Shown: positions 6,525 through 20,611 of the stretch, one piece after another
Numbering within the stretch: the stretch's first letter is position 1
Layout: every line of letters starts with the position of its first letter
NCBI GenBank assembly: GCA_018816345.1
Contig: JAHIWG010000012.1
Coordinates: 1-64,000, forward strand
DNA length: 64,000 bases
Origin: Spirochaetota bacterium
GTDB lineage: Bacteria > Spirochaetota > Spirochaetia > Treponematales > UBA12059
Direction of reading: 5' to 3'
The notes under the pieces: model-generated
The model's input: the letters and a program-made list of their open reading frames with translations, nothing else
What the model was told of the DNA's origin: nothing
The model's database searches: none
Program-made: the position numbers and the translations under genes

Positions 6525-7703
6525 TCAACGCTCGACGCACATCGCTACGCCCATGCCGCCGCCTATGCAGAGGGTGGCCAGGCCTTTCTTGGCGCCGCGC
6601 CGCTTCATCTCGTGGAGCAGGGTGACGAGTATGCGGGCGCCCGACGCGCCGATGGGGTGGCCGAGCGCAATGGCTCCTCCGTTGACGTTGACGCGGGCCA
6701 TGTCGAAGCGGAGCTCCTTGGCCACCGACAGCGCCTGGGATGCGAAGGCCTCGTTGGCCTCGATGAGCTCGACCTCCTCCAGGCTCCAGCCCGCCCTCCT
6801 GAGCGCCAGGCGAACGGCCTCCACGGGGCCTATGCCCATGATCGCCGGGTCGCAGCCGTGCCAGCCGTACGAGACGACGCGCGCGAGCGGCGTGTAGCCC
6901 TTCGCCTTGACGGCGTCCTCGCCGGCGACTATGAGCGCCGCGGCGCCGTCGTTGATGCCGGAGGCGTTGCCCGCGGTTACGGTGCCGTCGGGCTTGAAAG
7001 CCGGGCGCAGCTTCCCGAGGGCGTCGGCGGTAACGCCCGCGCGGGGGAACTCGTCGGTATCGACGACGACGGGGTCGCCCTTCTTCTGGGGCAGGACGAC
7101 TGGAACGATCTCGTCGGCGAACCTGCCCGCCTTCATCGCGGCCTCGGCCCTGTTCTGGCTCCCCGCGGCGAACTCGTCCTGCTCGCGACGTGAGAGCGAG
7201 TACTTCGCGGCCAGGTTCTCGGCGGTGATGCCCATGTGGTAGCCGCCGAACGCGTCGGTCAGGCCCTCGTAGACCATGGAATCGATGATCTCCCCGTTGC
7301 CCATCCTATAGCCGTTACGCGCCTGCCTAAGGAGATAGGGAGCCTGGCTCATGTTCTCGGTTCCGCCCGCGAGCACGACCGAGGCGTCGCCGGCCTTGAC
7401 GGCCTGGGCCCCGGCTGCGACGGCGCGGAGCCCTGAGCCGCAGACCATGTTGATGGTCAGGGCCGTACGCTCCAGGGGCAGGCCCGCCTTCACGACGACC
7501 TGCCGCGCTACGTTCTGGCCGAGGCCGGCCTGGAGCACGCAGCCGAGCACGGCCTCGTCGATATCGGCCGGCGCCGCGCCGGCGCGCTCCATGGCGGCAG
7601 TCGCGGCAATCCTTCCTAGCTCGACGGGGCTCACGCCCGCCAGGGCCCCGTTAAAACTACCGATAGCCGTTCGCGCGGCCCCAACGATAAAGACGTCTTT
7701 CAT
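6525..7703 (-). CDS. atoB: Acetyl-CoA C-acetyltransferase (thiolase)
   Basis: Splits acetoacetyl-CoA with CoA into two acetyl-CoA, the last carbon step of lysine fermentation (reversible). The 392-residue thiolase has all catalytic residues: Cys88 in [10 protein letters not shown], His349 in [11 protein letters not shown], and Cys379 in [10 protein letters not shown] chose the ATG at 7703-7701 because AGGGGGGA precedes it and [15 protein letters not shown] is the family's usual N-terminus; a longer frame upstream is unlikely. It lies downstream of atoD and atoA on the same strand and probably shares their transcript, although a 13-bp hairpin at 7754-7782 separates them. Confidence 0.93.
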
Positions 7704-7753
7704 AGAATCCCCCCTAAAAAAATATAGTGAATCACCCCTCATTAATAATACGC

Positions 7754-7782
7754 TGATAGCCGGACTAAAAGTCCGGCTATCA
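7754..7782 (-). terminator. 13-bp hairpin between atoA and thiolase genes
   Basis: tgatagccggact pairs perfectly with agtccggctatca around a 3-nt loop. There is no long T-tract, so it may be a partial terminator or an RNA-processing or stability hairpin within the atoDA-thiolase unit. A weaker 6-bp hairpin (gaggcc/ggcctc) lies at 7848-7862, just after the atoA stop. Confidence 0.5.
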
Positions 7783-7868
7783 AGGCTACATCATAGTCCT
7801 ATGCATATCGACGATCCGTCAATAGTAAAATTAGCCCGGGTGCTATAGAGGCCTAAGGCCTCGGGGCC

Positions 7869-8531
7869 TCACTCGAATATCCCGCAATCGTCCGCTACGG
7901 CTATATCGGCGTCGGTGCTCGCGAGTATCCATTCCGGCGTATACGGGGCGAAGCATTCCTCGAGGCGGAATTTCCCGCCCGATACGGAGAAATAGCCGAC
8001 GTCGGTCACGACTATGTCGACCTCGTGGGCGGCCGTCAGAGGCAGTGTGCATAGCCTCTTGAGCTTCGACGCGCCCGACTTCTCGAGATGGGTGGTAGCG
8101 GCTATCACCTTCTTCGATCCGGCGACGAGGTCCATGGCGCCGCCCATCCCGGGCACCATCTTGCCCGGGATCTTATAGTTGGCCAGGTTGCCTTCCTGGT
8201 CTACCTCCAGGACGCCGAGCACGGTGAAGTCGACGTGGCCGCCGCGGATAATGCCGAAGCTCTCGGCCGAGTCGAAGAAGCAGCCGCCCGGCAGCACCGT
8301 AACGGGCATGCCCCCGGCGTTCGTCAGGTCCTTGTCGCCCTTGCCCTTCTCGGGAGCCGGGCCGAGCCCCATCATGCCGTTCTCCGACTGCAGGATGACC
8401 GTGACCTCGGGCGGCACGAAATTGCCGACCATCGTCGGAAGCCCTATGCCGAGGTTGACCACGTCCCCGGAACGGAAGAAGCGGGCTATCCTGCGGGCTA
8501 TTATTTCCTTGTTCTCGACGTATTCTATCAT
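7869..8531 (-). CDS. atoA: CoA-transferase subunit B (AtoA-type)
   Basis: Beta subunit of an acetate/butyrate:acetoacetate CoA-transferase. In lysine fermentation this enzyme moves CoA from butyryl-CoA to acetoacetate. The 220 residues include the catalytic glutamate in QSENGMMGLG (Glu50), GLPTMVGNFVP near the N-terminus and GGAMDLVAGSKKVI, all typical of the family. GGGAGGGG lies upstream of the ATG. Only 12 bp separate it from atoD. The exact CoA donor cannot be read from the sequence; the butyryl-CoA role is inferred from the neighbouring kam/kce/kdd genes. Confidence 0.92.
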   Translation of the reverse strand: MIEYVENKEIIARRIARFFRSGDVVNLGIGLPTMVGNFVPPEVTVILQSENGMMGLGPAPEKGKGDKDLTNAGGMPVTVLPGGCFFDSAESFGIIRGGHVDFTVLGVLEVDQEGNLANYKIPGKMVPGMGGAMDLVAGSKKVIAATTHLEKSGASKLKRLCTLPLTAAHEVDIVVTDVGYFSVSGGKFRLEECFAPYTPEWILASTDADIAVADDCGIFE

Positions 8532-8543
8532 TGCGCCCCTCCC

Positions 8544-9218
8544 TTACTCGGCCATTACGATGTAGTCGACGAAGATGCTCGGCGTATGCACCTGGTCCGG
8601 GTCGATGGAGCCGATCGCCACGAGTTCCTCGACCTCGGCTATGACCACGGTACAGGCCGAGGCCATCAGCGGGTTGAAGTTACGGGCCGTCTTGGCGTAG
8701 ACGAGGTTGCCGGCCTCGTCGGCCTTCTTAGCCTTGATGAGGGCCACGTTGCCGGGCAGGGCCTCCTCGAGGAGGAAATCCTTCCCGTTTAGGCGTATCT
8801 TCTGCTTACCCTGCTCCACCTCGGTCCCGACGCCCGTAGGCGTAAGGACGCCGCCGAGGCCGTTGCCCGCCGCGCGGACCCGCTCCGCGAGCGTTCCCTG
8901 CGGCACGAGCAGGACCTCGGACTCGCCGGAGTTCATCTGGCGCTGGGTCTCCGGGTTGGTTCCGATATGGGAGACGATCATCGTCTTGAAGGCCTTCTGC
9001 TTGATGAGGGGAGCCGGCCCCGTGGAGCGGCCTTTTTCCTCGTTGAAGATGCCGGTATCGTTGCAGACGAGCGTCAGGCCCTTAGTACCGGCGGCGACGA
9101 GCGCCTTGACGATGGCGTCCGGGCAGCCGCATCCGAGGAACCCGCCCAGGTGGACGACGTCGCCCGGCCGAATCTTGGCGGCCGCCTCGTCCGCCCGTAT
9201 CACTGGCTTCTTGATCAT
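8544..9218 (-). CDS. atoD: CoA-transferase subunit A (AtoD-type)
   Basis: Alpha subunit partner of AtoA. The 224-residue frame has the family's PGDVVHLGGFLGCGCPDAIV CoA-loop region near residues 18-37 and LVPQGTLAERVRAAGNGLGG in the middle. A GGAGGT Shine-Dalgarno precedes the ATG at 9218. It is the first gene of a separate minus-strand unit (atoD-atoA-thiolase), with its own promoter at 9289-9317 and a terminator of the upstream operon just before it. Confidence 0.92.
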   Translation of the reverse strand: MIKKPVIRADEAAAKIRPGDVVHLGGFLGCGCPDAIVKALVAAGTKGLTLVCNDTGIFNEEKGRSTGPAPLIKQKAFKTMIVSHIGTNPETQRQMNSGESEVLLVPQGTLAERVRAAGNGLGGVLTPTGVGTEVEQGKQKIRLNGKDFLLEEALPGNVALIKAKKADEAGNLVYAKTARNFNPLMASACTVVIAEVEELVAIGSIDPDQVHTPSIFVDYIVMAE

Positions 9219-9288
9219 GATGTACCTCCGATTGCGTTCGCCGGCGGCCGCGCCGGCGCGCTCGACCCCGTATATCCTAGACGGAAGG

Positions 9289-9317
9289 ACTATAGCACGG
9301 CCTCCGGCCGGCGTGAA
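9289..9317 (-). promoter_or_regulatory. Predicted sigma-70 promoter for atoDA-thiolase
   Basis: On the minus strand TTCACG (9317-9312), a 17-bp spacer, then TATAGT (9294-9289), about 70 bp before the atoD start and downstream of the operon terminator at 9337-9369. Confidence 0.55.
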
Positions 9318-9336
9318 GCGCGGACCGCCGGGGCAG

Positions 9337-9369
9337 AAAAAGGACGGCCGCGCGTTCGCGCGGCCGTCC
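9337..9369 (-). terminator. Rho-independent terminator of the lysine operon
   Basis: On the minus strand a near-perfect stem (ggacggccgcgcg at 9342-9354 with its complement at 9357-9369) is followed by TTTTT. It lies about 80 bp after the antiporter stop codon and ends the kdd-to-antiporter transcription unit. Confidence 0.88.
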
Positions 9370-9448
9370 GGAATTCCTCGTGCTCGGCGCGGAGCCCTAG
9401 CGGCCGGGGCCGCGCTCGGCGGCTCTCGGACCGCGCGGGGCCCTAGCC

Positions 9449-11095
9449 TTAGTCCTCGAGCTTATAGTGGGCCTCTCCCAGCCACCTGGGCAGGAGCAGC
9501 GTGCCCGCGACGAAGACGACGGCGGTCACGGCGAGGCCTACGATGGCGTTGAAGCCCGCGAGGCTCGCGGCCACGATGCCGATGCCGGCGCACAGGGCCA
9601 CGAAGGCGGCGTACGGCAGCTGCGTGGCGACGTGCTCGAGGTGCGGGCACGCGGCCCCGGTGGACGACAGTATCGTCGTGTCGGAGATCGGGGAGCAATG
9701 GTCGCCGAAGACCGAGCCGCCGAGCACCGCGCCGATGGCGAGGGCCGTGGCGTTGATCACGGCGTTAGGATCCATGCCGGCGTTCTTGGCAAGCGTGATC
9801 ATCACCGGCATCGTTATCGGCACCATGATGCCCATCGTGCCCCAGCTGGTGCCGGCCGCGAAGGATATCAGGCAGGAGATTATGAACACCACGATCGGCA
9901 CGAAGTAGAGCGGGAAGTTGCCGTTCACGACGAAGTCCGATACGTACGCGGCCATGCCCACGCCGCCATCGGCGGGAGCGCTCTTTATGATGCTACCGAT
10001 GCCCCAGGCGAGCGTCAGGATGGTGACGGCGGGCGTCATCGCCTTGAAGCCGTCCAGGAGGGCCTCTCCGCCGGTCGTCATCTTGATGAGGCCGCGGATC
10101 AGGTAATAGACGTACGCGAACGCGAGCGAGATGATCGACGCGTACATGAGGGCCTTGGAGGAGTCGCTGTTATTGAAGGCCTCGGCGAAGGGCGTGGCGG
10201 CGATGGCCGCGCCTAGGGTGGCTACCTGCCCCTCGCCCGAGCCGACCTGCGACATCCAGAACTGGAGAGGGAAGAACGTCAGGGCTATGACGACGAAGGC
10301 CAGTATGGGCACGACGAAGTCGAAGGCCTTGGCCTTGCCGGAATCGTGCGCCTTGGACTCGACCTGGGCGGCGATGATGCCGTACTTCTTGGAGTCGTAG
10401 AGTCCGATGCCCTTCTCGGCGCGGGCAGCGGAGCGGGCCATGGGGCCGAAATCCTTGTAGGTGATGGTAATGAACAGGACCATGAACACCGCGAAGATGG
10501 CGTAGAGGTTGAACGGGATCGACCGCAGGAACAGCTGCATCGGGGTGACGCCCAGCGACTCGAATTCGGCGCCGGAGAACTGGCCCATGACGTAGACGAC
10601 CCAGGTCGATAGCGGCGCCAGGATGGCCACCGGAGCGGCCGTCGAATCCAGTATGTACGCGAGCTTGGCGCGGCTGATCCTCTTGGCGTCGGTCAGCGGG
10701 CGCATGCAGGTGCCGATGGTCAACGAGTTGAAGTAGTCGTCGAAGAAGATTAGGAGCCCGAACACCCAGGTGAAGAGGAGGGCGCCGGTCTTGGTCTTGA
10801 TCTTCTTGGACGCCCAGTCGCCCAACGCGTAGGCCGAGCCGGTCTTGGACAGGAGGCCGACCATCATGCCGAGCAGGATGGTGAACAGCACGATGCGGAT
10901 GCTCCAGCCGTCGGCCAGCGTGTCGGCTATCTTATCGGCGAGCATGAGCATGGCCTGGAAGGGATTGCCCCCGGCCACGATGAGCGTCCCCGAGAAGATC
11001 CCGAGGAACAGCGAGACGATGACGTCCTTCGTGAGGATCGCCAGGATAATCGTCAGCAAGGGCGGGATGATGGATAGAATGCCGAAATGTTCCAT
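9449..11095 (-). CDS. NhaC-family Na+/H+ antiporter-like transporter
   Basis: A 548-residue polytopic membrane protein with many hydrophobic segments, starting MEHFGILSIIPPLLTIILA. Motifs such as FFDDYFNSLTIGTCMRP, GTSWGTMGIMVPI and FGDHCSPISDTTI are typical of the NhaC family. The ATG at 11095 has AAGGAGG at good spacing; a longer upstream start (11155) is rejected. It is the last gene of the lysine-fermentation operon before the terminator. I infer a role in lysine uptake or in sodium/proton balance during fermentation; the substrate cannot be settled from sequence. Confidence 0.85.
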   Translation of the reverse strand: MEHFGILSIIPPLLTIILAILTKDVIVSLFLGIFSGTLIVAGGNPFQAMLMLADKIADTLADGWSIRIVLFTILLGMMVGLLSKTGSAYALGDWASKKIKTKTGALLFTWVFGLLIFFDDYFNSLTIGTCMRPLTDAKRISRAKLAYILDSTAAPVAILAPLSTWVVYVMGQFSGAEFESLGVTPMQLFLRSIPFNLYAIFAVFMVLFITITYKDFGPMARSAARAEKGIGLYDSKKYGIIAAQVESKAHDSGKAKAFDFVVPILAFVVIALTFFPLQFWMSQVGSGEGQVATLGAAIAATPFAEAFNNSDSSKALMYASIISLAFAYVYYLIRGLIKMTTGGEALLDGFKAMTPAVTILTLAWGIGSIIKSAPADGGVGMAAYVSDFVVNGNFPLYFVPIVVFIISCLISFAAGTSWGTMGIMVPITMPVMITLAKNAGMDPNAVINATALAIGAVLGGSVFGDHCSPISDTTILSSTGAACPHLEHVATQLPYAAFVALCAGIGIVAASLAGFNAIVGLAVTAVVFVAGTLLLPRWLGEAHYKLED

Positions 11096-11263
11096 GATCA
11101 GATGCCTCCTTAATGATGGAACGGAACGTATTTTCCTAGCTTGCACCCGAAACAATAATTACGCAATGTTTTTTTCGCGCCGGCCGAAGCCTGCGCAGCG
11201 ACGTGCGATACGTTGGCGCGCGCCGCGGACGCCGCGCAGGACGGCTTCGGCCGCGACGCTACC

Positions 11264-11995
11264 TTAGGTGCGCTCGGCCAGCTTCTTGACTATGAACGTG
11301 GCCACGTCGTTGGCGTAGGCGCCGCGGCCGAAGCCGACGTCGAAGCCTAGTTCCACGGCGAGCTTGTTGCCGATGCGGGGGCCGCCGGCGACGCAGATGA
11401 ACTTGTCGCGCAGGCCCTTAGCCTCGAGCAGCTCTATGAACTCGGTCATGTTGTGGACGTGGGTGTCCTTCTGCGTGACGACCTGGCTGATCAGTATGGC
11501 GTCGGCCTTCACCTTGAGCGCGAACTCGATGAGGCGCTCGTTGGGGACCTGGGCGCCCAGGTTGAACGCCTCCATCTCCGGGTAGCGCTCGAGGCCGTAG
11601 TGGTGGTTATAGCCCTTCATGTTCATGATGGCGTCGATTCCCACGGTATGCGCGTCGAAGCCGGTGCACGCCCCGACTATGACGACCTTGCGCCCGATAT
11701 GCCGCCTTATATACTCGTTGACCGCGTCCATGTCCATGGACGCGTCGGCGGACGCCTCGTCGGCCACGACGGAATCGTAGTCTATGGACGCCTCGGTCTT
11801 GCCGTACGCCACGTACATCGAGTACTCGGCGGACAGCGGGTTGGAATGGACGACCTCGCAATCCTTGAAGCCCCACGAGAGGACGAGCTTGCGCGCCGCC
11901 TCCCGGCCCTTGGCCCCGTCGGGGACGGGGAGCGTGAAGGACAACTGGACCTTGCCGTCGTCCATGGTGTCGCCGTACGGCCTTACTACCCTCAT
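11264..11995 (-). CDS. kamE: Beta-lysine 5,6-aminomutase, beta subunit
   Basis: With KamD it moves the terminal amino group of beta-lysine to carbon 5, using adenosylcobalamin and PLP. The 243-residue protein carries the B12-binding motif DxHxxG in GACTGFDAHTVGIDAI (Asp114, His116). It also has Lys127 in MNMKGYNHHYG; the His-Lys spacing of 11 equals that of the known His133/Lys144 pair of the clostridial enzyme, so Lys127 should hold PLP. AGGAGGAGG precedes the ATG. It follows kamD by 12 bp, so the subunits are made together. Confidence 0.95.
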   Translation of the reverse strand: MRVVRPYGDTMDDGKVQLSFTLPVPDGAKGREAARKLVLSWGFKDCEVVHSNPLSAEYSMYVAYGKTEASIDYDSVVADEASADASMDMDAVNEYIRRHIGRKVVIVGACTGFDAHTVGIDAIMNMKGYNHHYGLERYPEMEAFNLGAQVPNERLIEFALKVKADAILISQVVTQKDTHVHNMTEFIELLEAKGLRDKFICVAGGPRIGNKLAVELGFDVGFGRGAYANDVATFIVKKLAERT

Positions 11996-12007
11996 GTCGT
12001 CCTCCTC

Positions 12008-13579
12008 CTACCTAGCGAGCCCGAGCTCGCGCTTGAGCCCCGACTCGAACGGGTTATAATAAGCGGGGCCCTTCCTGACCAGGCCCTCGAAGCCCTTGCC
12101 GCCGTCCTTCGGCCGCTTGACCTCGGCGAACAGGCCCTGCTCTATCGAATCGAACATGCCTACCTTCTCCACGTGCTCCATGAACTCTATGGTCTCCTTG
12201 AGCACCTGGTGGGCTCGCGAGACGACGATGCCGTCGGCCTTGAATTCGATATCGTCGTAGAACCCGTCCATGCTGTTCATCACGTAGCGGGCGTTGTCCA
12301 CCGCCAGGAAGCGGTCCATCATGAACGGCGTGTGTATCGCCTCGGTCAGCATGCCCAGGAGGTGGATGCCCTGGTCGGTCGCCTTGGACACGAAGTTGAA
12401 CAGGGTGTTCATCGCCACTCCCTTGAAGATGTCGCCCGACATGAACTTTGTCGGGGGCATGTACTTGAGCGGGTGCTCGGGGAATATCTCCCGGGCCATC
12501 TGCGCCTGGGACAGCTCGTACAGGAACCCGTTCTTTATCGTCGGGTCCATCTCGAAGGCGTGGCCGAGCCCCTGGAACCGGGCCTCGAGGCCGGCCTGGA
12601 AGCCGAAGCGCTCGTTCAGGAACTGGCTCGCGAGCACGGTGTACGCCTTCTCGAAGGCGTCGCTCGTCGTCAGGTAGTTGTCCTCGCCGGTATTTATGAT
12701 GACGCCCGCGTAGGCGTTGATCATGCGGCTGAACTTCTGGTCGACGAAGGTGCGGTACATGTTGATGTCGCGGAACAGGATGCCGTACATGGAGTCGTTG
12801 AGCATCATGTCCAGGCGCTCCACGGCGCCCATCGCCGCTATCTCCGGCATGCACAGGCCCGACGCGTAGTTGGTCAGCCTGATATACCGCCGCTGCCTCT
12901 CGCCCACCTCGTCGAGGGCGGCGCGCATGATGCGGAAGTTCTCCTGGGTGGCGTAGGTGCCGCCGAAGCCCTCGGTGGTGGCGCCGAAGGGCACGTAGTC
13001 GAGGAGGCTCTGGGCCGTAGTGCGGATGACGGCTATGACGTCCGCGCCCTGCTCAGCGGCCGCGGCGGCCTGCTTGACGTCCTCGTATATGTTGCCGGTG
13101 GCGACGATGAGGTACAGGAGGGGGCTGTTGTTCCGGCCCTTCCACTGCTCGAGCTTCCGCTCGCGGAAGCCGCGGTTCTCCTTCACGCGGGCGAGGGTCC
13201 CCGCGACGAGCTCCTCGGCCTTGGCCTCGATGGCCGCGCGGTCGCCGAGGGGCAGGCTCATCACGTCGAAGCCCGCGGCTATCCTGTCGTTGAGGGCCCG
13301 TACCGCCCCGCCCGACTTGATGAGCGCGTTGACGTAGCGGACGGTGGCGCCGTCCTCGAGGGCTGCGGGATCGGCCGCCCGGATGCTGTCGACGACGAGG
13401 TTGGGCACCGGCACGCCGTCCGGCGTGGCGCCGTCGGCGCCGGCCAGGCGCAGCGTCGCGCGCTCCACGGTGACCGAGCTATGCCCGTCTATGAAATCCT
13501 GCACGGGCGCGGTGATGCGCTCGGCCAGGGCCCGCGCGTACGCGACGCGATCGGCCGGTAGGTTCAGCTTGCTTCTCAT
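12008..13579 (-). CDS. kamD: Lysine 5,6-aminomutase, alpha subunit
   Basis: Large subunit of the B12/PLP aminomutase, forming the TIM-barrel active site. The 523-residue frame begins MRSKLNLPADRVAYARALAE, and the sequence matches the KamD family along its length (for example AMGAVERLDMMLNDSMYGI and ATDQGIHLLGMLTEAIHTP). Its ATG overlaps the kamC stop as ATGA, which indicates translational coupling. Assignment rests on the family sequence and on kamE directly downstream. Confidence 0.93.
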   Translation of the reverse strand: MRSKLNLPADRVAYARALAERITAPVQDFIDGHSSVTVERATLRLAGADGATPDGVPVPNLVVDSIRAADPAALEDGATVRYVNALIKSGGAVRALNDRIAAGFDVMSLPLGDRAAIEAKAEELVAGTLARVKENRGFRERKLEQWKGRNNSPLLYLIVATGNIYEDVKQAAAAAEQGADVIAVIRTTAQSLLDYVPFGATTEGFGGTYATQENFRIMRAALDEVGERQRRYIRLTNYASGLCMPEIAAMGAVERLDMMLNDSMYGILFRDINMYRTFVDQKFSRMINAYAGVIINTGEDNYLTTSDAFEKAYTVLASQFLNERFGFQAGLEARFQGLGHAFEMDPTIKNGFLYELSQAQMAREIFPEHPLKYMPPTKFMSGDIFKGVAMNTLFNFVSKATDQGIHLLGMLTEAIHTPFMMDRFLAVDNARYVMNSMDGFYDDIEFKADGIVVSRAHQVLKETIEFMEHVEKVGMFDSIEQGLFAEVKRPKDGGKGFEGLVRKGPAYYNPFESGLKRELGLAR

Positions 13580-15348
13580 ACTCCATCCTTCGTTAGATAG
13601 TATCGGGCCCGCTCGACGATTCGCGGATCGAGCCCTAGGAGCGACGCTATGGCGAGCGCGTCGCTCTCGGAGCCCGAGCCGTCGTCGTCGACGACCTCGT
13701 ACCTCATATGCCTATTGATGCCGGCCAGGCGCTCCGATAGCTCCGCGCCCGCGACCGGCCCGGCCCCGCCCGTCCGTTCCAAGGCCGCGGCGGCCGCCGC
13801 CCTGTCCAGTCCCCTCATGCGCCTGTACTCGGCGCCCTCTATCCTGGCGACCCCGCGGAAATGCGTCGCGAAGAAGGCCCGGTCGCCGCCCGCGCCGCCT
13901 GCCACGGCCTCGTAGGCGCGCGCGTAGGACTCTACCACGGCCGAGAGCAGGGCCTCCGCCTCGTGGGAGCCCGTGGTCCTGGCCAGCTCGTCGAACGCGA
14001 CGAGCACCCGCCGGTCTCCCCGGTCTCCCCGGTCTCCCTGGTCTCCCGGCCCGCCGGGGCCCGCTCCCCCGGCCCCGGCAGCCATGAGGCGCCAGACTTC
14101 CAGGCCGAACCCCGACAGGCCCGCGAGCCGCTCGCCGGACAGCTCGCCCACGTACTCCACCCGGTCGTAGACGCTCGTCTCGAAGGTGCGCGCGGGTACG
14201 AAGAGCCCGGCCTGGGCCAGGAGCTGGAAGAAAAGCAGCGTCTTAAGCACGACGGTCTTGCCGCCCATATTCGAGCCGAACAGCACCACGGCTCCCGAAT
14301 CGAACTCGGCGCTCAAAGGCGAGTACTCGAGCCCCATGCCACGGCACTCGTCGGCGCACGGCACGAATCGAGCATCCACGAGCCTCGTAGCGCACGAGGA
14401 AAGCCGAGGCCGGCTCATGCCGAACGCCAAGGCCAGCTCGGCGCCGGCCCGCGCCCTATCGAGGCGCGTGGTCGCCGCCACCGCGGAGGCGAGAGCAGGC
14501 ATGGCCGCCGCCGCGAGCGCGGACAGGCGCGCGACTACCCGCTCCTCGGCGCGGCGCTCGTCGGCAAGGTAGCGCTCGCGCTCCGCCATCGCCTCGACGG
14601 CGCGCGGCGAAGGCAGGAGCCTGACCAGGTAGCGCGCGTCGTCGTAGGGCTCCGCGGCGTAGCGGCCCGCCGCGCCGCCCATGCGCCCGTCGGGGCCCTC
14701 CCCGGACAGCATGGCCCGAGCCGCGTCCTTGGGCGCCACGATGAACTCCCGCCCGTCGAACGATACCCCGAAGGCGAGGCGAGCCTCGGCCTCGGCCCTG
14801 ACGCGCTCCTCCGCGACGATAGCGTCGGCGGCCGCTATCCCGGCCCGCGCATCCGCGAGGCCGGGGTCGTAGCAGTCCGCCACGTAGAACGTCTCCGGGT
14901 CTGACCCGCCCCTATCCAGCTCGGACGCCAGCGAGCTAGCGGCGGAGCCCCGTTCGAGCGGGGACATGCCGAAGGCCGCGGACAGGCCCTCCCCGAGCGC
15001 CGAGACAGCGCCCTTATAATTAGCGATGAATTTCTTTATCTGGAATAGCTCCAGGACCTCGTACAGGGCCCTAGGCTCGAGCGTCAGCCTCGGCATGCGG
15101 CGGAGATGGTACGACACCCTGTCCCTAGCCAGCGAGTCGAGCGACTCGGGCGCGGCCTTATCCTCGCGCATGAGCCCAAGGACGGCCTCTATATCGTCGT
15201 ACCGGCCTTCGAGGAGCTCCGCGTCCGCGTACACGACCCGAGCCTCGCGCTCGTCCTTGCCCCAGGGCGTCAAGGGCGAGTAGCGGTCCCAGAAATCGTC
15301 GAGCTGGGCGAAGGACCAGGCCTCCGCGCACGGGGCGGCCAGCCTCAT
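13576..15348 (-). CDS. kamC: MutS-like ATPase of the lysine operon (KamC)
   Basis: A 590-residue protein with a C-terminal MutS-type ATPase: Walker A GSNMGGKTVVLKTL, Walker B-like LVAFDELARTTGSHE, and FFATHFRGVA. The N-terminal half has no MutS mismatch-recognition domain that I can recognise. MutS-like genes are known companions of aminomutase genes in lysine-fermentation clusters, where a reactivating or assembly role has been suggested, so DNA repair is unlikely here. A Gly-rich GDQGDRGDRGD stretch is encoded by 9-nt repeats at 14011-14047. It overlaps kamB and kamD by ATGA at both ends. Confidence 0.8.
   Translation of the reverse strand: MRLAAPCAEAWSFAQLDDFWDRYSPLTPWGKDEREARVVYADAELLEGRYDDIEAVLGLMREDKAAPESLDSLARDRVSYHLRRMPRLTLEPRALYEVLELFQIKKFIANYKGAVSALGEGLSAAFGMSPLERGSAASSLASELDRGGSDPETFYVADCYDPGLADARAGIAAADAIVAEERVRAEAEARLAFGVSFDGREFIVAPKDAARAMLSGEGPDGRMGGAAGRYAAEPYDDARYLVRLLPSPRAVEAMAERERYLADERRAEERVVARLSALAAAAMPALASAVAATTRLDRARAGAELALAFGMSRPRLSSCATRLVDARFVPCADECRGMGLEYSPLSAEFDSGAVVLFGSNMGGKTVVLKTLLFFQLLAQAGLFVPARTFETSVYDRVEYVGELSGERLAGLSGFGLEVWRLMAAGAGGAGPGGPGDQGDRGDRGDRRVLVAFDELARTTGSHEAEALLSAVVESYARAYEAVAGGAGGDRAFFATHFRGVARIEGAEYRRMRGLDRAAAAAALERTGGAGPVAGAELSERLAGINRHMRYEVVDDDGSGSESDALAIASLLGLDPRIVERARYYLTKDGV
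14011..14047 (-). repeat. 9-nt tandem repeats in kamC
   Basis: On the plus strand the unit ccggtctcc is repeated four times with small changes. On the coding strand it encodes a collagen-like Gly-Asp-Gln/Arg repeat inserted just before the Walker B region of the MutS-like ATPase. Confidence 0.8.
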
Positions 15349-16271
15349 GCCGCCCGCCCTTCCGCGACCTCGTACGGGTTGTACGAGACGAGCGCGGCGA
15401 TGGAGTCGTCGGCGAGCCTCGAGGCGAACTCGGCGTCGCTAACGCCTCGGCACGCGACGACGAAGCCGCCGAACTCGATTCGCCGGGCGACGAGGAGCTC
15501 GCGCCCGCGCATGAAGGCCGACAGCTCCTGGTCGCTTAAGAACACCTTGGTAAAATCCTCGACGATGACCGAGGAGGCCCATCGGGGCAGCCTGGCGGCC
15601 GTCTCGGCGGTCAGCGCCCCCTCGAGCGCGTACTGGCCCGCGTCGCCGCCCAAGCCCGCTCCCGAGCCTCCGGCGCAGTCGAGCGGCGGATCGGCCACGG
15701 GAAGCCTGGCCAGCGTCGCCATGCGCCTCACGCGCGCGACGGCGCGCTCGAGCCCCGCCCCGTCGGCCCTGAGCGCGTAGACGAAGCGGGCGCCGGGGAT
15801 GGAGGCGGCCTGCGTGATCCTATTGATGGCCCCGTCGACCAGCACCGTGCCCGTGAGCCCCTCGTCGACTATGCGCCTGACGGCCCAGGCGACGAGGGAG
15901 TTGCCTTCCGGCCCGACGAGGGCGACCGTAGCCGCCCTACGCGCGCGCGCGACGCAGAGGCGCCCGAGGGCGCACGAGCCCGGCAGGACGTCGAGGATCT
16001 CGGGGGAGCAGGGCCGCGCGAAGCGCTCGGTCGTCACGACTACGTCGCCGGCGGCGACCGGCACAGCCGGCTTCCGCGCCCCGGACAGGAAATCCCTGGC
16101 CTCGCCGTCGTAGCCCACGGTCAGGAGGGCGGGCCCGGCCAGGCCCGCCTCGCGGGCGCCCCGCCGCGCGAGCTGGGCCGCCCGGTTCATGAGGGTAGTC
16201 TTGCCGCAGTGCTTTTCCGGCCCCGTCACGAACGTGACCCTCCCCAGGAAATCCCCCGCATTATCGATCAT
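15345..16271 (-). CDS. kamB: P-loop protein of the lysine operon (KamB)
   Basis: A 308-residue protein with an N-terminal P-loop, VTGPEKHCGKTTLMN (residues about 14-28), and later segments (VALVGPEGNSL, GTVLVDGAINRI) typical of a nucleotide-binding fold. In lysine-fermentation clusters KamB and KamC are small-molecule-metabolism companions of the aminomutases, possibly acting in enzyme maintenance; this role is inferred. Coupled to kamC by an ATGA overlap. Only a weak GGGG precedes its ATG, perhaps because a mobile element (16306-16785) has been inserted directly upstream, separating it from kamA. Confidence 0.72.
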   Translation of the reverse strand: MIDNAGDFLGRVTFVTGPEKHCGKTTLMNRAAQLARRGAREAGLAGPALLTVGYDGEARDFLSGARKPAVPVAAGDVVVTTERFARPCSPEILDVLPGSCALGRLCVARARRAATVALVGPEGNSLVAWAVRRIVDEGLTGTVLVDGAINRITQAASIPGARFVYALRADGAGLERAVARVRRMATLARLPVADPPLDCAGGSGAGLGGDAGQYALEGALTAETAARLPRWASSVIVEDFTKVFLSDQELSAFMRGRELLVARRIEFGGFVVACRGVSDAEFASRLADDSIAALVSYNPYEVAEGRAA

Positions 16272-16305
16272 TGCATAGCCCCGAAAGCTTGGTCGAGTAG
16301 TTCTC

Positions 16306-16785
16306 GCACAGAGACACAGAGAAGAAGAAGAGCGATATTGGCCGTATCATAGCATCATCCTATAGATACCATTCTTTAAGTCTGTAGATTTGAAATTCAA
16401 GAGCAGCCCAGTATTCCAGCCTCCAAGCCGCATATACGATAAAAGCTGAGCCTTATGAATCGAGATGATTGTATCTACGCACTTCAGCTCGAGTGCTATC
16501 GAATTTTCTACAACCATATCCACTCTGAACGAACCCGAAAGTAGAGCGCCTTTATAGACGACAGGCAACTCCGCTTGACGGACGAACGACAAGCCGCTCT
16601 CTGCGAGTTCTAGGGATAGAGCCTCCTCGTAGATCGATTCGAGGAGGCCCGGCCCGAGCTCGCGATGTACGGATATCGCGCATCCGATGATCCTATCGCT
16701 CAGCATATCATGCTCCAACAGCTACTCCATCCTACCCATATTCTTCATATGCAAGGCTCTTCTCATCTTCTCTGTGTCTCTGTGC
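16306..16785. mobile_element. 480-bp inverted-repeat element carrying a GxxExxY gene, copy C
   Basis: Both ends are the same 20-bp sequence, gcacagagacacagagaaga, in inverted orientation (16306-16325 and 16766-16785). Between them is a single gene, the GxxExxY protein at 16347-16718. The element separates kamB from kamA in the lysine operon. The ends match shorter gene-less copies at 1414, 6364 and 18121. I infer a mobile or once-mobile unit with the GxxExxY gene as cargo or agent. No target-site duplication is evident by eye. Confidence 0.7.
16347..16718 (-). CDS. GxxExxY family protein
   Basis: A 123-residue protein containing the family motif GLLESIYEEAL (G-x-x-E-x-x-Y) near residue 23, followed by AELPVVYKG, FRVDMVVEN, ALELKCVDTI and AQLLSYMRL. 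The D...ELK pattern resembles a PD-(D/E)xK nuclease-like core, which is the fold suspected for this family. Function is not established. Its base composition is clearly more AT-rich than the kam genes on either side, and it lies within perfect 20-bp terminal inverted repeats, both signs of horizontal arrival. Confidence 0.85.
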   Translation of the reverse strand: MEHDMLSDRIIGCAISVHRELGPGLLESIYEEALSLELAESGLSFVRQAELPVVYKGALLSGSFRVDMVVENSIALELKCVDTIISIHKAQLLSYMRLGGWNTGLLLNFKSTDLKNGIYRMML

Positions 16786-16801
16786 TTATTTCTTCGAATA
16801 C

Positions 16802-18097
16802 TTACTTCTTCTTCCGGGGGGAGAAGGCGGTAGTGCCCCTCGCGGCGCGGACCAGGTTCTTGGGCTCCAGGGTCTTCTCGTCGCCCGACAGGAGCCTCGC
16901 GACGCCGCAGGTGGCGTTGAGCTGGGGCTCGTCGAAGCAGATGCGGCACTTGCCGCAGTCCTCGTGGTAGCCGTCCGGCTCGTCATACGTGGTTATCACG
17001 CCCTCGTAGTTGCGGAGTATGACGCGCTTGTCGTTGCTCGAGATCATGTAGTCGGGCATCACCGGGGTCTTGCCGCCGCCGCCGGGCGCGTCGATCACGA
17101 AGGTCGGCACCGCCATGCCGGAGGTGTGGCCGCGCAGGTTCTCGATGATCTCTATGCCCTTGCTCACCGTCGTGCGGAAGTGGCTGATGCCGCGGGATAG
17201 GTCGCACTGGTAGATATAGTACGGCTTGACGCGGATGGTCAGGAGCTTCTGCACGAGCTGCTTCATGAGCACCGGGCAGTCGTTGACATCGCGCAGGAGC
17301 ACGCTCTGGTTGCCCAGCTGGATGCCCGCGTCGGCGAGCTTGCGGCAGGCCTCGCGCGATTCCGCGGTGATCTCCTTGGGATGGTTGAAGTGCGTGTTGA
17401 CGTACAGCGGGTGGTACTTCTTGAGCATGCCCACGAGGTTCTCGGTGATGCGCTGGGGCATGACCACCGGCGTGCGGGTGCCGATGCGGATGATCTCCAC
17501 GTGCGGGATGGCGCGTATCTTCTTGATGATGCCCTCGAGCTTCTCGTCGGACAGTATCAGGGGGTCGCCGCCGGAGATGAGCACGTCGCGGATTATGGGC
17601 GTCTTCCTGATGTACTCGATGGCCGCGTCGATGTACTCCTCGTTCATGTTGGCGTCTTCCTCGCCGACGATGCGCCTGCGGGTGCAGTGGCGGCAATTCA
17701 TCGAGCAGATATGCGTGACGAGGAGGAGGACGCGGTCGGGATAGCGGTGCGTCAGGCCCGGGACGGGGCTATCGGAGTCCTCATGGAGGGGGTCGTCCTG
17801 GTCGCTCTCGTCGAAGTGGGTCTCCGGCAGGCGCGGGATGGCCTGGAGGCGGACCGGGCAGCCGGGGTTGGCCGGGTCAATCAGGGAGGCGTAGTACGGC
17901 GTTATGGCCATGCGGAAGACCTTGAGGACCTCGCTCACGTCGGCCTTGTCCTTCTCGGTCAGCGGCACGACCTTGGCCAGGGTCTCGACGTCCTTGATGT
18001 TGTTCTTCATCTGCCAGCGCCAGTCGTTCCACTGCTCCGGCGTCACGTCCTTGTACAGCGGGATGCGCGTGTAATCGTAAGTCGGGTACGTATGCAT
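16802..18097 (-). CDS. kamA: Lysine 2,3-aminomutase
   Basis: A radical SAM/PLP enzyme converting L-lysine to L-beta-lysine, the first step of the pathway. The 431-residue frame has the SAM cluster motif CSMNCRHC (Cys131, 135, 138). Asp299 (DLSRGISH), Asp336 (VIDAPGG) and Lys343 (GGGGKTP) match the clostridial Asp293, Asp330 and PLP-Lys337 with a constant offset of 6. A C-terminal Cys cluster (DCGKCRICF) is the zinc site. The ATG at 18097 has TAGGAGG upstream; the longer frame to 18124 is rejected. Flanked by inverted-repeat elements on both sides. Confidence 0.96.
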   Translation of the reverse strand: MHTYPTYDYTRIPLYKDVTPEQWNDWRWQMKNNIKDVETLAKVVPLTEKDKADVSEVLKVFRMAITPYYASLIDPANPGCPVRLQAIPRLPETHFDESDQDDPLHEDSDSPVPGLTHRYPDRVLLLVTHICSMNCRHCTRRRIVGEEDANMNEEYIDAAIEYIRKTPIIRDVLISGGDPLILSDEKLEGIIKKIRAIPHVEIIRIGTRTPVVMPQRITENLVGMLKKYHPLYVNTHFNHPKEITAESREACRKLADAGIQLGNQSVLLRDVNDCPVLMKQLVQKLLTIRVKPYYIYQCDLSRGISHFRTTVSKGIEIIENLRGHTSGMAVPTFVIDAPGGGGKTPVMPDYMISSNDKRVILRNYEGVITTYDEPDGYHEDCGKCRICFDEPQLNATCGVARLLSGDEKTLEPKNLVRAARGTTAFSPRKKK

Positions 18098-18120
18098 GAT
18101 CTGCCTCCTAAGATTTCCAA

Positions 18121-18227
18121 GCACAGAGAAGATGAGACGCAGAGAGTAGAATCCAAGATAGAGAACCTATGCTCGCTTTCCTTGGCAGCATTCCCTTCCT
18201 CCCTCATCCACTCCGCGTCTCTTTGCG
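18121..18227. mobile_element. Degenerate inverted-repeat element, copy D
   Basis: The left end (18121-18146: gcacagagaagatgagacgc...) and right end (18202-18227, reverse complement gcaaagagacgcgg...) contain the same words as the other elements (cacagaga, agatgag, acgcagag) but in a rearranged order. It lies between kce and kamA. I infer a decayed copy. Confidence 0.4.
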
Positions 18228-18241
18228 AATTACCTTGCCAT

Positions 18242-19069
18242 TCAACCCTTTAGTTTCAGGTACTTGCGGACGTCGTCGGGGCTGGCGGGAGAGAGGCCGG
18301 CCTCGCCGGCTATCCTCGCGGCGCGCTCGACGAGCTGGGCGTTGCTCTTGGCCAGGACGCCCTTAGAGAAGAATACGTTATCCTCGAAGCCGACGCGAAT
18401 CCAGCCTCCGTTGGCTACGGCGCCGTACTGCGCGGGCAGGGACGAGCGCCCTATGCCCATCACGGTGTAGTCGGCCCCCGCCGGCATAGCCTTGATGAAC
18501 GCGGAGAGGTTCTCCACGCTATACGGCACCGCCCCGGGCACGTTGAGCACGAAGCCGTAGTGGAAGGGCGCCTCGATGAGGCCTTCCTTGACGAGGTAGT
18601 GGCTCGCGTAGACGTGCCCGAGGTCGAAGCATTCCAGCGTCGCCCGCACCCCGCGGCGCTTGAACTCGGCGGCGAACTCGCGCATCGTCGGCAGCGTGTT
18701 GACGATATACTCGTCCCCGAAGTTGACCGTGCCGCAGTCCAGCGACGCCATCTCCGGCTCGAGCTCCTTGACCGGGCGGAGGCGCTCCTCGGCCGTATCG
18801 CCCACAGCCCCGCCGGTCGTTATCTCGATGACGATGTCGGTCTTCCTCCGTATCGCGTCGATCGCCTCCTTGAAGCGCGCGACGCTCTGCGTCGCGTTGC
18901 CCTGATCGTCCCTCACGTGCAGGTGGAGGATGGCGGCGCCCGCCGCCCTGCACTCCTGGGCGGTCGCGGCGACCTGGTCCGGGGTGATGGGCAGCGCGGG
19001 ATTCTGAGCTACCGTCGTCTCGGCGCCGGTGCACGCGCAGGTGATTACTATCTTACCGTCAAGAGCCAT
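18242..19069 (-). CDS. kce: 3-keto-5-aminohexanoate cleavage enzyme
   Basis: A zinc-dependent BKACE-family enzyme that condenses 3-keto-5-aminohexanoate with acetyl-CoA to give acetoacetate and 3-aminobutyryl-CoA. The 275-residue length is typical. Zinc ligands His49 and His51 lie in ILHLHVRD, and VITCACTGAETT is the usual N-terminus. Later family motifs include ASLDCGTVNFGD, VLNVPGAVPY and NGGWIRVGFEDN (the last carries the third metal-site Glu). AAGGAGG precedes the ATG. It sits between kdd and kamA, as expected for the pathway. Confidence 0.95.
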   Translation of the reverse strand: MALDGKIVITCACTGAETTVAQNPALPITPDQVAATAQECRAAGAAILHLHVRDDQGNATQSVARFKEAIDAIRRKTDIVIEITTGGAVGDTAEERLRPVKELEPEMASLDCGTVNFGDEYIVNTLPTMREFAAEFKRRGVRATLECFDLGHVYASHYLVKEGLIEAPFHYGFVLNVPGAVPYSVENLSAFIKAMPAGADYTVMGIGRSSLPAQYGAVANGGWIRVGFEDNVFFSKGVLAKSNAQLVERAARIAGEAGLSPASPDDVRKYLKLKG

Positions 19070-19570
19070 ATGCCCTCCTTATTTCGATGGGGCGCGAACC
19101 GGGGATACGGCGGCAGGGCTGGCGACGGCGCGCGCATCGGGACGGCCCGAACGCCGTTATAGTACGTGCATGCGCCCTCGTAAGCCCTGCCGCCCCCTCC
19201 GTAGACGCGTAGACCCGTAGACTAGAAACGAGAACCGAAGGAATTACATAGAATCGGCTCGGATGGTCTCGTCCACCCTCCGGCCCCCGCGGGCCGTCTT
19301 CCGATACGTTCCAGCTCGCTCGAGCTCGTCCGAGGCGTAGCCGCCTAGGCCGCTCTCGCTCGCCGCGCCGGGGACGGGGAGCCCCCGGGGCGAGAGACGG
19401 TTTCCCGCCTTCCCACGTTTTTTTTCGCCGACTCGATCCTTACCAGCCGCGCTCGGCCGCGTACGAACCGGGAGACGGACTGCCCCCGCCGGTCTATCGC
19501 GCGCTCGCGCGGCCCGGCTCGCCGTCCTCCCATCGTCAGGCTGCTCTACGATTTCGCCCTCTCGGACGAT
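19070..19570. other. 500-bp gap between kdd and kce
   Basis: No convincing gene. The short open frames here lack a Shine-Dalgarno and are Arg-rich, as expected for chance frames in GC-rich DNA. A T8 tract lies at 19418-19425 on the plus strand. A TATAAC hexamer on the minus strand, about 85 bp before kce, could give kce its own promoter, but the -35 match is poor. I looked for a cobalamin-riboswitch B12 box because the operon encodes a B12 enzyme and saw none. Confidence 0.5.
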
Positions 19571-20611
19571 CTACTTGACGTACTGATCCTCGAAGTACTT
19601 GCGGAGCTGGGCGTTCTCGCGGAGCTCCCACAGCGTTATCTCGGCGTGGTCCTTGGTATAGCCGTTGCCGATTATCATGAGGACGTCCTTGCCGATGCCC
19701 TCGGCCCCGAGCGCGGCGCGGGTGAAGCTCGTCGCCATGCTGAAGAAGTAGACGATGCCGTTGTCCCGGACCGGCAGGATGCTGGCCATCTCGCAGCCGG
19801 CGATGTTGACGCAGTTGATGACGATGTCCACTTCCTTGCCGCCGTTGGCCTTGAGGACCGCCTCGAGCACCTCGACCGGCTTGGTGGAATCGGCCATCAC
19901 GATCTCGTGGCACAGCTTCATCTCGGTCAGGGGCTTCACGTACTTCTCGTTGCGGATGTTGGCGATCACCCTGCCGGTGGGGCCGACGCGCTTCATGGCC
20001 TCATAGCAGCACATGAGCCCGGACTTGCCGCCGGCTCCGAGCACGAGCACGCTGTCGCCGGGCTTGACGAGCTTGGCGGTCTGCGCGGGGGCCCCGGCCA
20101 CGTCCAGGGCGGCGAGCGCGAGGCCCTCGTCCATGTCGGCGGGAAGCTTGGCGTAGATGCCGGACTCGAAGAGTATGGCCTGGCCGTCTATCAGGACGCG
20201 ATCCACCTCGGGCATGACCTTGATGATCTTGTTGATCTTGAGCGGGGTCAGGGACAGGGACACGAGGCTGGCGATCTTGTCGCCCACCTTGAGGTCGCGG
20301 CCCGCGAGCGCGGAGCCTATCCTGGCCACCTTGCCGATGAGCATGCCGCCCGAGCCCGTCACGGGGTTCTGCTGCTTGCCGCGCTCCGCGACGATGGACA
20401 TGATCTTCTTGCCGATCTTGTCGACGTCGTGCCCGGCCTCTTCCTCGATCTGCGTGAAGCTGGCCGAGTCGACGTTGAGCGCGATCACGTCGATCAGGAT
20501 CTCGTTGTCGTAGACCTTCGACATGTCGTTGTCGATCCTCTGCGCGGTCTGCGGCATGGCGCCTACCGGGTCGATGACGCGGTGGGTGCCGTACTTGCTG
20601 CCTAGAGCCAT
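19571..20611 (-). CDS. kdd: L-erythro-3,5-diaminohexanoate dehydrogenase
   Basis: Oxidatively deaminates 3,5-diaminohexanoate to 3-keto-5-aminohexanoate with NAD(P)+, linking the aminomutases to Kce. The 346-residue protein starts MALGSKYGTHRVIDP and has the dinucleotide fold SVLVLGAGGKSGLMCCYEAM (GxGGxxG) plus VTGSGGMLIGKV and VDIVINCVNIAG segments characteristic of Kdd. AAGGAGG precedes the ATG. It is the promoter-proximal gene of the lysine operon. Confidence 0.94.
   Translation of the reverse strand: MALGSKYGTHRVIDPVGAMPQTAQRIDNDMSKVYDNEILIDVIALNVDSASFTQIEEEAGHDVDKIGKKIMSIVAERGKQQNPVTGSGGMLIGKVARIGSALAGRDLKVGDKIASLVSLSLTPLKINKIIKVMPEVDRVLIDGQAILFESGIYAKLPADMDEGLALAALDVAGAPAQTAKLVKPGDSVLVLGAGGKSGLMCCYEAMKRVGPTGRVIANIRNEKYVKPLTEMKLCHEIVMADSTKPVEVLEAVLKANGGKEVDIVINCVNIAGCEMASILPVRDNGIVYFFSMATSFTRAALGAEGIGKDVLMIIGNGYTKDHAEITLWELRENAQLRKYFEDQYVK

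Follow-up and report, generated by a model that had tools for sequence, protein, structure and literature searches.

KamB and KamC, a P-loop protein and a MutS-core ATPase encoded beside lysine 5,6-aminomutase in a Spirochaetota genome, as the probable reactivase of that enzyme

What would a MutS-type ATPase do in an operon for lysine fermentation? The question is raised by a 64,000-nucleotide stretch of DNA (the window), which belongs to contig C100 in a Spirochaetota assembly of 3.8 Mb. Here kamC, which encodes such an ATPase, and kamB, which encodes a P-loop protein, directly precede kamD and kamE, the genes for lysine 5,6-aminomutase (KamDE). A preliminary description of the locus had proposed that KamB and KamC (together, KamBC) have a dedicated role in aminomutase assembly or reactivation rather than in DNA repair, and had left open whether they serve KamDE or KamA, the lysine 2,3-aminomutase of the same operon. 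Our analysis points to KamDE and not to KamA, and makes it probable that KamBC is an ATP-powered reactivase of KamDE that would replace oxidised cobalamin after suicide inactivation. The genes and motifs on which the argument turns are as follows.

15345-16271, minus strand: kamB, an open reading frame (ORF) for a 308-residue P-loop nucleoside triphosphatase (NTPase), the putative reactivase subunit; divergent relative of NF052386, which it matches
16197-16223, minus strand: P-loop of KamB (G-x5-GKT, residues 17-25), with G17, G23, K24 and T25 invariant in 40 KamB sequences
15345-15348, minus strand: ATGA overlap of the kamB stop and the kamC start
13576-15348, minus strand: kamC, a 590-residue MutS-core ATPase, the putative reactivase ATPase; divergent relative of NF052383 (NF052383, MutS_V and Foldseek matches)
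14254-14277, minus strand: Walker A motif of KamC (GSNMGGKT, residues 358-365)
13987-13992, minus strand: Walker B motif of KamC, Asp453-Glu454 (FDE), invariant in 34 of 34 sequences
13576-13579, minus strand: ATGA overlap of the kamC stop and the kamD start
12008-13579, minus strand: kamD, lysine 5,6-aminomutase alpha subunit (NF052384, 793 bits, over the cut-off of 600)
11264-11995, minus strand: kamE, lysine 5,6-aminomutase beta subunit (NF052385, 367 bits, over the cut-off of 280; PF02310)

Both ATGA overlaps had been described before and are present. As kamD and kamE do not overlap and lie 12 nucleotides apart, coupling of this kind joins kamB, kamC and kamD only.

KamC had also been described as a MutS ATPase core without mismatch-binding domains, and our searches bear this out. 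MutS domain V (PF00488) was the sole Pfam domain that KamC matched above cut-off, and no Smr domain was found with Pfam. A KamC profile aligned over positions 18-451 to residues 568-1019 of MSH3, a match that begins only where the core does; for this reason we conclude that KamC lacks the mismatch-binding domain I and the connector domain II. The AlphaFold2 model of KamC is confident (predicted local distance difference test [pLDDT] 89.0; predicted template modelling score [pTM] 0.87) and lies nearest to MutS/MSH2 and MutS2 (Foldseek E values from 7e-19 to 1e-15). In this predicted model, the clamp position is occupied by a small tip of some 50 residues, carried on two long helices (residues 162-193 and 248-309). 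The KamC of one other genome (G099) lacks the tip entirely, so that it is not essential.

The ATPase site of KamC is intact. In addition to the Walker motifs, the protein has a signature loop (GLSGFGxE) and a switch histidine. Across 34 KamC sequences, Walker A, Walker B and the switch histidine are invariant and the signature loop (GLS-F) is nearly so, the conservation of Walker A being partly built in by our use of GSNMGGK as one of the two patterns in the locus search. The other motifs are unaffected by the search pattern, and members from Clostridia that were found by profile also keep G-x-N-M-G-G-K.

In the KamB alignment, G53, G56, D146-G147, R151 and F244 are invariant along with the P-loop residues, and the AlphaFold2 model is again confident (pLDDT 90.5). 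No entry in the PDB matched KamB below an E value of 0.001, by single sequence or by fold. The best of the weak structural neighbours found with Foldseek included HypB (E 0.011), MobB and, further down, MeaB (E 0.40). No Pfam family fits KamB; the cobW model matched one of 40 members, at an E value of 0.08. The KamB profile matched RecA chains only, through a 36-residue P-loop stretch that did not pass alone, and no stretch of the alignment was conserved enough for a pattern scan.

Although the mechanism had been called undescribed, both already carry names in NCBIfam, "lysine 5,6-aminomutase reactivase ATPase KamC" (NF052383) and "lysine 5,6-aminomutase reactivase subunit KamB" (NF052386). 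KamB and KamC thus form a named database family, of which the window pair are divergent members. KamC matches NF052383 over almost its full length (254.3 bits, E 2.4e-75; residues 15-584 on profile positions 2-507 of 508) with an intact MutS-type active site, at a score below the curated cut-off of 300. KamB scores 109.6 bits against NF052386 (E 1.5e-31), below the curated cut-off of 210, and matches no other NCBIfam model. For both proteins, the reactivase models are the best matches, yet both scores fall short of the curated cut-offs. The NF052383 cut-off in fact splits the branch to which the window KamC belongs: two genomes of the same family score 301.4 bits (G063) and 292.4 bits (G169).

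In a tree of 65 MutS-type cores, one branch separated all 39 KamC proteins from MutS and MutS2 (Shimodaira-Hasegawa-like approximate likelihood ratio test [SH-aLRT] 86; the tree is unrooted). Within this group, the window KamC falls in a strongly supported branch of 19, with members from Spirochaetes, Bacteroidetes, Acidobacteria, Lentisphaerae and Elusimicrobia, that is deep and separate from the KamC of Clostridia. The Walker A motif also differs, being mostly GANMGGKT in Clostridia versus GSNMGGKT in the window KamC. What the window pair has in common with the two NCBIfam families are the neighbours kamA, kamD and kamE, the ATPase motifs and confinement to KamD-positive genomes. Current curated cut-offs miss this divergent clade.

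The client is indicated by the near-strict co-occurrence of KamB with KamDE. Among 247 Spirochaetota genomes, KamD was found in 11 and KamB in nine, all nine within the KamD set. Among 245 Clostridia genomes, the corresponding numbers were 18 for KamD and 16 for strong KamB matches (16 of 16 within the KamD set); one further match, in G461, was at noise level (18.6 bits) and was left out. Every genome with a clear KamB (25 of 25) was thus KamD-positive. The hypergeometric odds are 7e-15 for Spirochaetota and 3e-23 for Clostridia, both overstated owing to the relatedness of the genomes. Stronger evidence than these odds comes from genomes in which the co-occurrence persists without linkage: G005, G018, G030 and G041 (KamB was not found in G041), and those carrying loci L122, L124, L127 and L148. 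In the last four, kamBC stand with kdd-kce or kdd-kce-kamA, and kamDE lie at another place in each genome.

KamB does not follow related aminomutases. It was absent from the ten genomes that have only ornithine aminomutase (OraE), which led us to reject KamBC as a general helper of pyridoxal-phosphate/B12 aminomutases including OraE. It was likewise absent from three genomes with KamA over cut-off and no KamD (G023, G064 and G150) and from control genomes, B. subtilis and M. acetivorans among them, in which the KamA family is matched. The window genome itself has a full set of ornithine genes, in which oraS-oraE precede the gene for a GlmL-related protein (L083 7351-11345, G000:C162; 515 bits against NF040744, under the cut-off of 600). 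The two related B12 aminomutases of this cell therefore have different presumed helpers, which points to KamDE as the client of KamBC.

To survey gene order, we scanned 84,980 species genomes with the KamC alignment and obtained 80 loci, of which 78 were analysed as KamC. The two left out were L166, which fell among MutS2 in the tree, and L167, which was excluded along with it; both lack kam neighbours, and no KamD occurs in their genomes. The kamB gene was immediately upstream of kamC in 68 of the 78 loci, and in 62 the gene immediately downstream was kamD; contig ends account for much of the remainder. Four-nucleotide overlaps of the ATGA type occurred at 30 of 68 B-C junctions and 24 of 62 C-D junctions. 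Since the overlap is not universal, the conserved trait is adjacency together with co-occurrence.

Two other features of these loci deserve mention. In G063, an ORF of about 1000 residues that reads like an M16-type peptidase lies between kamC and kamD (L068 5796-8846), and a gap of equal size occurs at this place in L131 (9624-12976). A KamB-KamC fusion was considered as proof of contact and discarded, as no single ORF contained both P-loops; in L115, L132, L138 and L160, the long ORFs appear to be frameshifts or frames that overlap.

The behaviour of the enzyme suggests what KamBC may do. According to one review (PMC3958899), recombinant KamDE (E1 only) is active but suicide-inactivates via cob(III)alamin. 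The same review states that native lysine 5,6-aminomutase was activated, with ATP, by an auxiliary protein, E2, of about 80 kDa, which had adenosylcobalamin synthetase activity as isolated. KamDE uses adenosylcobalamin to generate a 5'-deoxyadenosyl radical; in the course of turnover, cob(II)alamin leaks an electron to the substrate radical, and dead cob(III)alamin stays behind in the enzyme. We infer a KamBC-KamDE complex, its use of ATP, the direction of the ATP step and the release of cobalamin, as follows. KamBC would bind the inactivated KamDE. KamC, probably as a dimer, would spend ATP in forcing the cobalamin domain open, and KamB may tie the departure of the damaged cobalamin to nucleotide state or may recognise the client. 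Fresh adenosylcobalamin, presumably supplied by the PduO-type adenosyltransferase that the window genome encodes, would refill the site. KamBC is also a candidate for the E2 activator of Stadtman, of which PMC3958899 gives a biochemical description.

Of the role proposed in the preliminary description, the dedication to an aminomutase thus stands, supported by the tracking of KamD even where the genes are unlinked, by separate MutS and MutS2 genes in the window genome and by the branch that KamC occupies. Between its two forms, we prefer reactivation to obligatory assembly because KamDE is initially active without KamBC (PMC3958899).

Several observations weigh against KamBC as the reactivase of KamDE, in addition to the scores below the curated cut-offs and the built-in share of Walker A conservation. 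One genome that is 96% complete (G131, locus L082) has kdd-kamA-kamD-kamE-kal-kce with neither KamB nor KamC detectable. Two Clostridia genomes, G322 (L204) and G375 (L205), have kamA-kamB-kamD-kamE, with KamB over cut-off and no KamC, the KamC search having returned MutS2-like matches only. Some lineages therefore manage without KamC, and at least one without either protein, so that the pair is not strictly required. Three other genomes (G275, G433 and G041), being fragmented or of lower completeness, were not judged as exceptions. In addition, the size and synthetase activity of E2 do not plainly fit KamB plus KamC, and we found no experimental paper on KamB or KamC in the open literature. 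The natural KamB-only and KamBC-free cases do provide material for testing how KamB and KamC divide their labour.

The same observations bear on other explanations. Of these, the one that survives best, unlikely as we consider it, is that KamBC is a maturation chaperone of the MeaB type, which would load adenosylcobalamin into newly made KamDE and gate fidelity, with rescue secondary or absent. A precedent exists in MeaB/MMAA, a P-loop chaperone that serves both delivery and removal for methylmalonyl-CoA mutase (PMC10481361, PMC10356863); the weak structural neighbours of KamB include the metallochaperones HypB and MeaB, and the coupling of the genes is compatible with co-translational assembly. 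However, KamDE produced recombinantly in the absence of KamBC shows activity with its cofactors (PMC3958899), and G131 retains KamDE without KamBC.

We regard as improbable that KamBC is instead an ATP-dependent allosteric activator of KamDE that exchanges no cobalamin, which would account for the historical E2 effect. PMC3958899 favours this in that the native enzyme was ATP-activated given E2 and recombinant E1 was not ATP-responsive; the same review, however, reports that OraS restored ATP regulation to KamDE, so that allostery by ATP may be possible without KamBC. The presence of two conserved active sites for NTP hydrolysis also suggests mechanical work over simple binding.

It is highly improbable that KamBC serves KamA or another enzyme of the operon and not KamDE. 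The position of kamB directly after kamA in most loci would agree with such a client, as would the four genomes that keep kamBC with kdd-kce-kamA and have kamDE elsewhere. KamA, however, is a radical S-adenosylmethionine (SAM) enzyme that uses no cobalamin, and we rejected it as a client in view of the KamA-positive, KamD-negative genomes, which, like the controls, lack KamB. Finally, that KamC is a DNA-repair or ribosome-rescue paralogue of MutS or MutS2, in the operon by chance, is scarcely credible despite its clear homology to their core, given its own supported branch, its lack of domains I and II and Smr and its tracking of KamD; that it is the mismatch-repair MutS or the MutS2 of this genome is ruled out, as both are encoded separately.

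The rest of the operon fits lysine fermentation. Its order on the minus strand is kdd-kce-kamA-kamB-kamC-kamD-kamE-transporter-CoA transferase, and its further genes are as follows.

19571-20611, minus strand: kdd, 3,5-diaminohexanoate dehydrogenase (NF052381, 264 bits, over cut-off)
18242-19069, minus strand: kce (NF052387, 364 bits, just under the cut-off of 382)
16802-18124, minus strand: kamA, radical SAM lysine 2,3-aminomutase (TIGR03820, 617 bits, over cut-off)
16347-16718, minus strand: GxxExxY gene of PD-(D/E)XK-like type, located between kamA and kamB (TIGR04256, 138 bits; PF13366)
9449-11155, minus strand: NhaC-like antiporter family transporter, 3' of the aminomutase genes (NF000013, 177 bits, below cut-off; TIGR00931)
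8544-9218, minus strand: coenzyme A (CoA)-transferase subunit A (TIGR02429/TIGR02428 over cut-off for both subunits)
7869-8531, minus strand: CoA-transferase subunit B (same models)
6525-7742, minus strand: thiolase

The GxxExxY gene is no part of the reactivase. It recurs within the lysine operon of other spirochaetes (L098, L127, L131, L135, L137, L141 and L153), either before kce or between kamA and kamB. The NhaC/Tet(35)-like transporter is also found in the lysine operons of related spirochaetes and may serve in substrate uptake or in ion balance. No homologue of kal (3-aminobutyryl-CoA ammonia lyase) or kat was found within the window, in which the operon occupies 6525-20611; that step of the pathway is therefore encoded elsewhere or performed by another enzyme. 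No cobalamin or lysine riboswitch was found at gathering threshold within the window.

As a biocatalyst, lysine 5,6-aminomutase is held back by suicide inactivation, a limit that a cognate repair machine of two proteins would address. A 2025 paper (PMC12429584) describes the inactivation of 5,6-aminomutase as not fully understood and as an obstacle to use, and makes no mention of KamB or KamC. To the database names, our analysis adds how strong and how specific the link to KamDE is, as well as the divergent branch and the KamB-only and KamBC-free cases. If KamBC is the reactivase of KamDE, an activator described early on would gain its genes, and a MutS-fold ATPase would be seen to remodel a metabolic enzyme. 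With confidence a little short of even, we put forward a broader proposal: KamC would be a clamp of the MutS lineage, repurposed from nucleic acids to proteins, that opens a B12 enzyme and ejects its damaged cofactor; KamB would be the client-specific part, acting alone in some Clostridia; the pair would be E2, and would represent a third way of repairing B12 enzymes, next to the reactivases of the acetate and sugar kinase/Hsp70/actin (ASKHA) type and the G-protein chaperones.

Comparison with known systems shows where KamBC stands. With MutS and MutS2, KamC shares the core of lever helices and ATPase domain, along with Walker A, the signature, Walker B and the switch histidine; it differs in the missing domain I, connector II and Smr domain, in its tip of about 50 residues and in its separate branch of the tree. 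The reactivases of diol dehydratase and ethanolamine ammonia-lyase (DdrAB and EutA) and the GlmL-related protein are likewise encoded beside a suicide-inactivating adenosylcobalamin enzyme and are nucleotide-dependent. DdrAB, EutA and GlmL-type helpers are Hsp70/actin-like (ASKHA) ATPases. KamBC does not have this fold, KamC being a MutS core and KamB a P-loop protein. MeaB/MMAA is, like KamB, a P-loop NTPase, and works with a B12 mutase in delivery and repair, as KamB may do; KamB, however, has no significant sequence or structural match to the G3E/MeaB proteins and is accompanied by a second ATPase.

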